The notes under the pieces are model-generated. The model saw only the letters and a program-made list of their open reading frames with translations. It searched no databases and was not told the origin of the DNA. The position numbers and the translations under genes are program-made. A DNA stretch of 32,760 nucleotides from Campylobacterales bacterium (GTDB lineage Bacteria; Campylobacterota; Campylobacteria; Campylobacterales; Sulfurimonadaceae): positions 1-32,760 of the forward strand of contig JACUTT010000023.1 in assembly GCA_014859655.1 (NCBI GenBank). Reading direction: 5' to 3'. The stretch's first letter is position 1. The number at the start of each line of letters is the position of its first letter. Of the stretch, positions 4,771-4,894 are shown piece by piece.

Positions 4771-4799
4771 TTGTAAATATAATGTTAAGTCGCTAAAAT
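4771..4799 (+). promoter_or_regulatory. Probable promoter of tRNA-Arg
   Basis: TTGTAA (4771-4776), a 17-nt spacer and TAAAAT (4794-4799) place a start near 4806, about 12 nt before the tRNA. A second TATAAT at 4778-4783 is an alternative -10 box. It overlaps the divergent DUF3108 upstream region. Confidence 0.5.
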
Positions 4800-4817: not shown

Positions 4818-4894
4818 GTCGGCGTAGCTCAGCTGTATAGAGCATCCGATTCCTAATCGGAAGGTCCTGGGTTAGAATCCCAGCGCTGACACCA
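4818..4894 (+). tRNA. tRNA-Arg (CCT), with U19/A56 instead of G19/C56
   Basis: A 77-nt cloverleaf with encoded CCA and anticodon loop TTCCTAA, reading AGG codons. All four stems pair, including GTCGGCG/CGCTGAC with one G-U pair. The D loop reads AGCTGTATA, so position 19 (4836) is T instead of the near-universal G. The T loop reads TTAGAAT, so position 56 (4874) is A instead of C. These two positions form the tertiary D-loop/T-loop pair, and both changes together would keep a Watson-Crick pair (U19-A56). The gene is likely functional. Confidence 0.9.

Follow-up and report, generated by a model that had tools for sequence, protein, structure and literature searches.

The elbow of tRNA is closed by a tertiary pair between position 19 of the D loop and position 56 of the T loop. 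Reviews and tRNA engineering work regard this pair, G19-C56, as invariant, and it provides a stacking surface for the ribosome, RNase P and other partners. A tRNA-Arg(CCU) gene of a Campylobacterales bacterium has U19 and A56 instead. Is this gene a working one, how did its elbow pair come to be replaced, and why in a tRNA for arginine? The window referred to below is the whole stretch of 32,760 nucleotides that was analysed.

The tRNA-Arg(CCU) gene and its elbow pair

ARAGORN identified a tRNA-Arg(CCU) at 4818-4894 on the + strand, which reads GTCGGCG TA GCTC AGCTGTATA GAGC A TCCGA TTCCTAA TCGGA AGGTC CTGGG TTAGAAT CCCAG CGCTGAC A CCA. The Rfam tRNA model RF00005 scored it at 67.2 bits (gathering score 29), which is mid-range among the tRNAs of its own genome. 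Numbering from G1 (4818) places G18 at 4835, U19 at 4836, A20 at 4837, U54-U55 at 4872-4873 and A56 at 4874. The features of the locus are as follows.

4771..4799, + strand: weak promoter-like site TTGTAA-17-TAAAAT, 5' of the tRNA, no more than expected by chance
4818..4894, + strand: tRNA-Arg(CCU) gene with encoded CCA (ARAGORN; Rfam RF00005, 67.2 bits; sequence)
4831..4839, + strand: D loop AGCTGTATA, with G18 at 4835, U19 at 4836 and A20, an arginine identity base, at 4837 (sequence)
4836..4836, + strand: U19, elbow partner to A56, usually G19 (sequence)
4850..4856, + strand: anticodon loop TTCCTAA, with the anticodon CCU at 4852-4854 (ARAGORN, sequence)
4872..4878, + strand: T loop TTAGAAT (T54 T55 A56 G57 A58 A59 T60) (sequence)
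4874..4874, + strand: A56, elbow partner to U19, usually C56 (sequence)

ARAGORN, Rfam and the sequence agree on an elongator tRNA-Arg(CCU) with a complete cloverleaf, paired stems and a CCA end, including a 5-pair anticodon stem and a 9-base D loop. The first-pass annotation had reported U19 at 4836, A56 at 4874, full pairing of the stems and an encoded CCA. Both bases were confirmed by the sequence and the position count, and all stems are paired, with a single wobble (G4-U69) among the pairs. The arginine identity set is complete, comprising A20 (4837), the anticodon (4852-4854) and A73 (4891). In its anticodon, cloverleaf and CCA, and in G18, A20, T54, T55, A58 and A73, the gene resembles canonical bacterial tRNA-Arg(CCU), and G53-C61 is also kept. 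It differs at the elbow, where the canonical tRNA has G19-C56 and this gene has U19-A56.

Within the genome, 37 tRNA loci were read, and the CCU tRNA alone departs from G19/C56, which is present in all of the other 36. The other tRNA-Arg genes, with anticodons UCU, UCG and GCG, are normal. A second, normal tRNA-Arg(CCU), which the first-pass annotation had named as a possible objection, was not found in the genome (assembly 99.6% complete, 4.8% contamination), leaving 4818-4894 as the sole CCU tRNA. AGG accounts for 12 of the 417 arginine codons in the 26 window genes, and can also be read by tRNA-Arg(UCU) through wobble.

The 19-56 pair in the genus, in other bacteria and in phages

The comparison of tRNA-Arg(CCU) genes that had been proposed at the outset was carried out across Campylobacterales, using a pattern that left position 56 free and the D loop unconstrained. 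The gene was detected in 24 of 120 relatives. All four genus genomes with the gene, the window's own included, have U19-A56, and G19-C56 is present in the remaining 20. Of 298 high-quality Campylobacterota genomes scanned, the window's own alone had an altered elbow. The genus gene is syntenic, adjoining tRNA-Met/tRNA-Gln. L100 and L139 align with the window over tRNA-Gln, a reading frame and tRNA-Arg at 82% identity, and tRNA or reading-frame neighbours are retained in two more (L102 and L136); the match in L138 is limited to the tRNA, which is identical to that of L102. The presence of U19-A56 throughout the genus at a conserved locus indicates an old change in this genus, passed on by vertical descent. 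In one congener, about 2.5 kb of extra DNA (L102:2129-4600) lies 5' of the tRNA-Arg(CCU), between it and the upstream reading frame.

The CCU gene is unevenly distributed across the family: the pattern matched in 6 of 73 sampled genomes, and the others either lack the gene or carry a form outside the pattern. With so uneven a distribution, tRNA-Arg(UCU) is presumably often the only reader of AGG. A same-family tRNA with G19-C56 (L140) has a similar acceptor stem and the identical wobble. U19-A56 together with an acceptor-stem G4-U69 wobble occurs both in the window's gene and in Silvanigrellales (L074, L033, L080), by descent, transfer or coincidence.

To describe the joint distribution of the two bases, 172 CCU tRNAs from three groups were collected with patterns blind to both 19 and 56. 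The pair was G-C in 151, C-G in 11 and U-A in 10, and mismatched in none. By group, the counts were 92 G-C, 11 C-G and 3 U-A in Acidobacteriota (n = 106), 39 G-C, no C-G and 3 U-A in Oscillospirales (n = 42), and 20 G-C, no C-G and 4 U-A in Campylobacterales (n = 24). Since 21 of the 172 have another Watson-Crick pair, the letters G19-C56 are no defining feature of tRNA-Arg(CCU). The initial proposal that the change is real and compensated, and that the gene is functional rather than decaying, is thus well supported, by the four of four genus genomes sharing one locus and by Watson-Crick pairing at 19-56 in 172 of 172 CCU tRNAs.

The search was then opened to any anticodon, and to any base but C at 56, in 946 genomes (349 Pseudomonadota, 299 Bacillota and 298 Campylobacterota). 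The patterns for this cover only tRNAs whose D stem is GCTC/GAGC and whose T stem has G52; many of the genomes in the analysis as a whole are metagenome-assembled. The scans gave 8 matches, all Watson-Crick, of which 7 were Arg(CCU) and 1 was Gly(UCC) with C19-G56. The latter, from Bacillota (G838:C19:20875-20927), was the sole non-arginine altered elbow in the cellular scans. A search for one-change intermediates, also suggested earlier, yielded no half-switched G19 with a non-C56 base in the 946 genomes among nine-base D loops, in which the pattern was verified to be able to catch such forms. No other minor C34 isoacceptor with a switched elbow was seen in the scans (GCTC/GAGC D stems). The corresponding scan of Acidobacteriota gave 13 matches, all Arg: CCU with U19-A56 (3), CCU with C19-G56 (8) and UCG with A19-U56 (2). 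Like the window's gene, the C19-G56 and A19-U56 tRNAs show compensated replacement of G19-C56, and unlike it they use other Watson-Crick combinations. The two tRNA-Arg(UCG) genes, at G121:C13:218521-218575 and G268:C16:18211-18265, represent a third Watson-Crick replacement.

A wider scan of about 85,000 species, with one genome per species, recovered 83 contigs with a U19-A56 tRNA-Arg(CCU) in many phyla, with carriers in Oscillospiraceae, Acidobacteriota, Marinobacterium, Chromatiaceae, Silvanigrellales, Acholeplasmatales, Rickettsiales and Hirschia. The tRNA folds in 82 of the 83, with a D loop equal or close to AGYTGTATA and the T loop TTAGART. Several carriers are isolates, one of them represented by a complete chromosome (L090, Marinobacterium sediminicola). 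The occurrence of the same pair in independent genus genomes and in isolates, including a complete chromosome, excludes read error as a general explanation. Altered elbows were nearly all in Arg tRNAs in cellular genomes, and mostly so on phage contigs. U19-A56 is a recurrent and strongly arginine-biased change, and is not confined to a single genome.

In Acidobacteriota, the CCU gene often lies directly downstream of apt (25 of 49 loci read), assigned as adenine phosphoribosyltransferase from its translated sequence. The apt tree was taken, by assumption, to represent the species tree. In one supported clade (98/95), the neighbouring tRNA is C-G in 3 genomes, U-A in 3 and G-C in 2, and at least three elbow changes are needed over the whole tree. 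Three genomes, G121, G213 and G268, have nearly identical tRNA bodies and three different elbows. The presence of G-C, C-G and U-A elbows beside apt shows repeated compensated switching in place, at an orthologous locus.

When IMG/VR was scanned for U19-A56 irrespective of anticodon, 68 contigs were recovered, most of them with tRNA-Arg. Because an altered tRNA was the criterion of selection, the proportions on these contigs are not rates: their non-Arg tRNAs had G-C (265), A-U (6), U-A (4), C-G (3) and exceptions (3), and their Arg tRNAs had U-A (48, most of them selected by the scan), G-C (18), C-G (3), A-U (1) and exceptions (3). The phage U19-A56 tRNA-Arg genes share the D loop type AGYTGTATA and the T loop TTAGART with the window's gene; they mostly have the anticodon UCU and lie on viral contigs, whereas the window's gene is chromosomal and syntenic. 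Nine genes with apparent mismatches were inspected, and most could be attributed to an ambiguous D-loop register, as in L177, where AAAGGTATA was read as G18 U19, or to a poorly paired gene (L149). The tRNA-Arg(UCG) of L178/L208, with D loop AATGATA and A56, may be a real A-A case. Altered elbows are numerous on these two phage contigs, among them C19-G56 in Arg(UCU) and U19-A56 in both Arg(GCG) and Arg(CCG), and L208 has an altered tRNA-Met as well.

Pairing, arginine identity and competing readings

Alongside the observed pair, its conservation in the genus, the strict covariation in other groups and the in-place switching at one Acidobacteriota locus, we propose from the sequence that 4818-4894 is probably a functional minor elongator tRNA-Arg(CCU), present in one copy and serving the rare AGG codon. 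A compensated double change from G19-C56 to U19-A56 in the ancestor of the genus would have switched its elbow, with Watson-Crick pairing selected and not G-C identity. Selection, we infer, acts to keep the elbow closed and capped by a planar Watson-Crick pair, rather than on the letters of that pair. RNase P and other enzymes make contact with the elbow, as does the ribosome in each of its three sites (PMC4810234).

The arginine bias may reflect how the tRNA is recognized. For bacterial Arg, A20 is the main determinant in an identity set of A20, C35, U36 and A/G73, and Leu identity depends on G18G19 and on G19-C56 (PMC9976931). Bacterial ArgRS reads A20, a base retained in 4818-4894, and this may be why Arg tRNAs tolerate the switch; switches would then survive mainly in tRNA-Arg. 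The CCU isoacceptor in turn may tolerate a half-switched intermediate until it is repaired, because AGG is rare, demand is low, and tRNA-Arg(UCU) serves as a wobble back-up. Low demand alone cannot account for the bias, as other minor C34 isoacceptors should then switch too, nor can arginine identity alone, as other bacterial Arg isoacceptors rarely switch.

The minimal substrate of TruB is GUUYRANYC, with a pyrimidine at 56 (PMC7912444). The T loop of the tRNA-Arg(CCU), 53-GTTAGAATC-61, has a purine at 56 and departs from the consensus 53-GUUYRANYC-61. The first-pass annotation had suggested that a change at 56 would remove a T-loop recognition sequence, which is plausible. With A56 or G56 off the TruB consensus, pseudouridine-55 is predicted to be reduced, and weaker modification of U55, perhaps also of U54, is a likely side effect of the switch.

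An unlikely alternative is that the elbow of tRNA-Arg was altered to avoid a tRNA nuclease, a tRNA-modifying toxin or a T-loop integrase, the partner base following. Such an escape would be consistent with the strong arginine bias in cellular genomes and phage contigs, with the many altered tRNAs carried by phages, mostly Arg(UCU), and with recurrence in many phyla. However, the genus locus is stable and housekeeping-like, and no integrase family appeared among the Pfam families matched by at least two of the 111 genes lying up to 2.5 kb downstream of 82 altered genes. An origin as an integration site was rejected on the same grounds; a lone integrase could escape this count.

It is quite unlikely that the genus took up a ready-made U19-A56 tRNA-Arg(CCU), for example via phage or from Bdellovibrionota (Silvanigrellales). 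The patchiness of the gene in the family (6 of 73 sampled genomes), the U19-A56 and G4-U69 combination of the Silvanigrellales versions, and the U19-A56 tRNA-Arg genes on phages would fit such a transfer. Against it stand the similar acceptor stem and same wobble of the same-family G19-C56 tRNA (L140), the one common locus across the genus genomes, and the occurrence of in-place switching in Acidobacteriota. The switching at the apt locus also weakens a single horizontally spread lineage as the sole explanation of all cases.

A role outside the ribosome, or another specialised one, is very improbable. Altered-loop staphylococcal tRNA-Gly species, which serve cell-wall synthesis, would be the parallel. 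To judge from the TruB substrate (PMC7912444), A56 may reduce modification of the T loop and alter contacts at the elbow. In the window's gene, however, the change is confined to a 19-56 pair that is still paired, G18, T54, T55, A58 and G53-C61 are kept, the tRNA is the sole CCU decoder of the genome, and an associated gene was not seen. A decaying or silent gene, or a sequencing error, is scarcely credible, for all the low AGG use and the chance-level promoter-like match, given the strict pairing, the intact stems and the conservation in independent genomes.

The elbow series and its relation to tRNA-Pyl

Beyond the preferred reading of selected pairing in a working minor tRNA, it is a doubtful possibility that Arg tRNAs, above all CCU, are subject to a regime of their own that repeatedly replaces 19-56 by another matched Watson-Crick pair, the elbow being a target of conflict (nuclease, toxin or integrase) or held outside normal T-loop modification. 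Elbows of the G-C, C-G and U-A type, occurring naturally in a single isoacceptor and at one orthologous locus, offer a ready test of whether partners of the elbow need its letters or only a flat pair, and likewise of the role of C56 in T-loop modification. The bias towards arginine, seen in hosts as well as phages, is now also directly testable.

A search of the open-licence literature for U19-A56, C19-G56 or elbow covariation in Arg tRNAs gave only the case of tRNA-Pyl. No description was found there of recurrence in one ordinary isoacceptor, of three states at a single locus or of an arginine bias, which argues only weakly for novelty. The pair as such was already known, since it is natural in tRNA-Pyl, where U19:A56 forms a tertiary Watson-Crick pair and its replacement by G19:C56 improved suppression in mammalian cells (PMC5758916). 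In tRNA-Pyl the D loop and T loop do not interact in the usual way, the D loop is small, the anticodon stem has six pairs and the T loop starts with UUAGA (PMC6337575); a G18-U55 pair is absent. The window's gene shares the U19:A56 elbow and the UUAGA start of the T loop with tRNA-Pyl (PMC5758916, PMC6337575). Unlike tRNA-Pyl, it is an ordinary class I elongator, with a five-pair anticodon stem, a nine-base D loop, G18 and T55, and the anticodon CCU.
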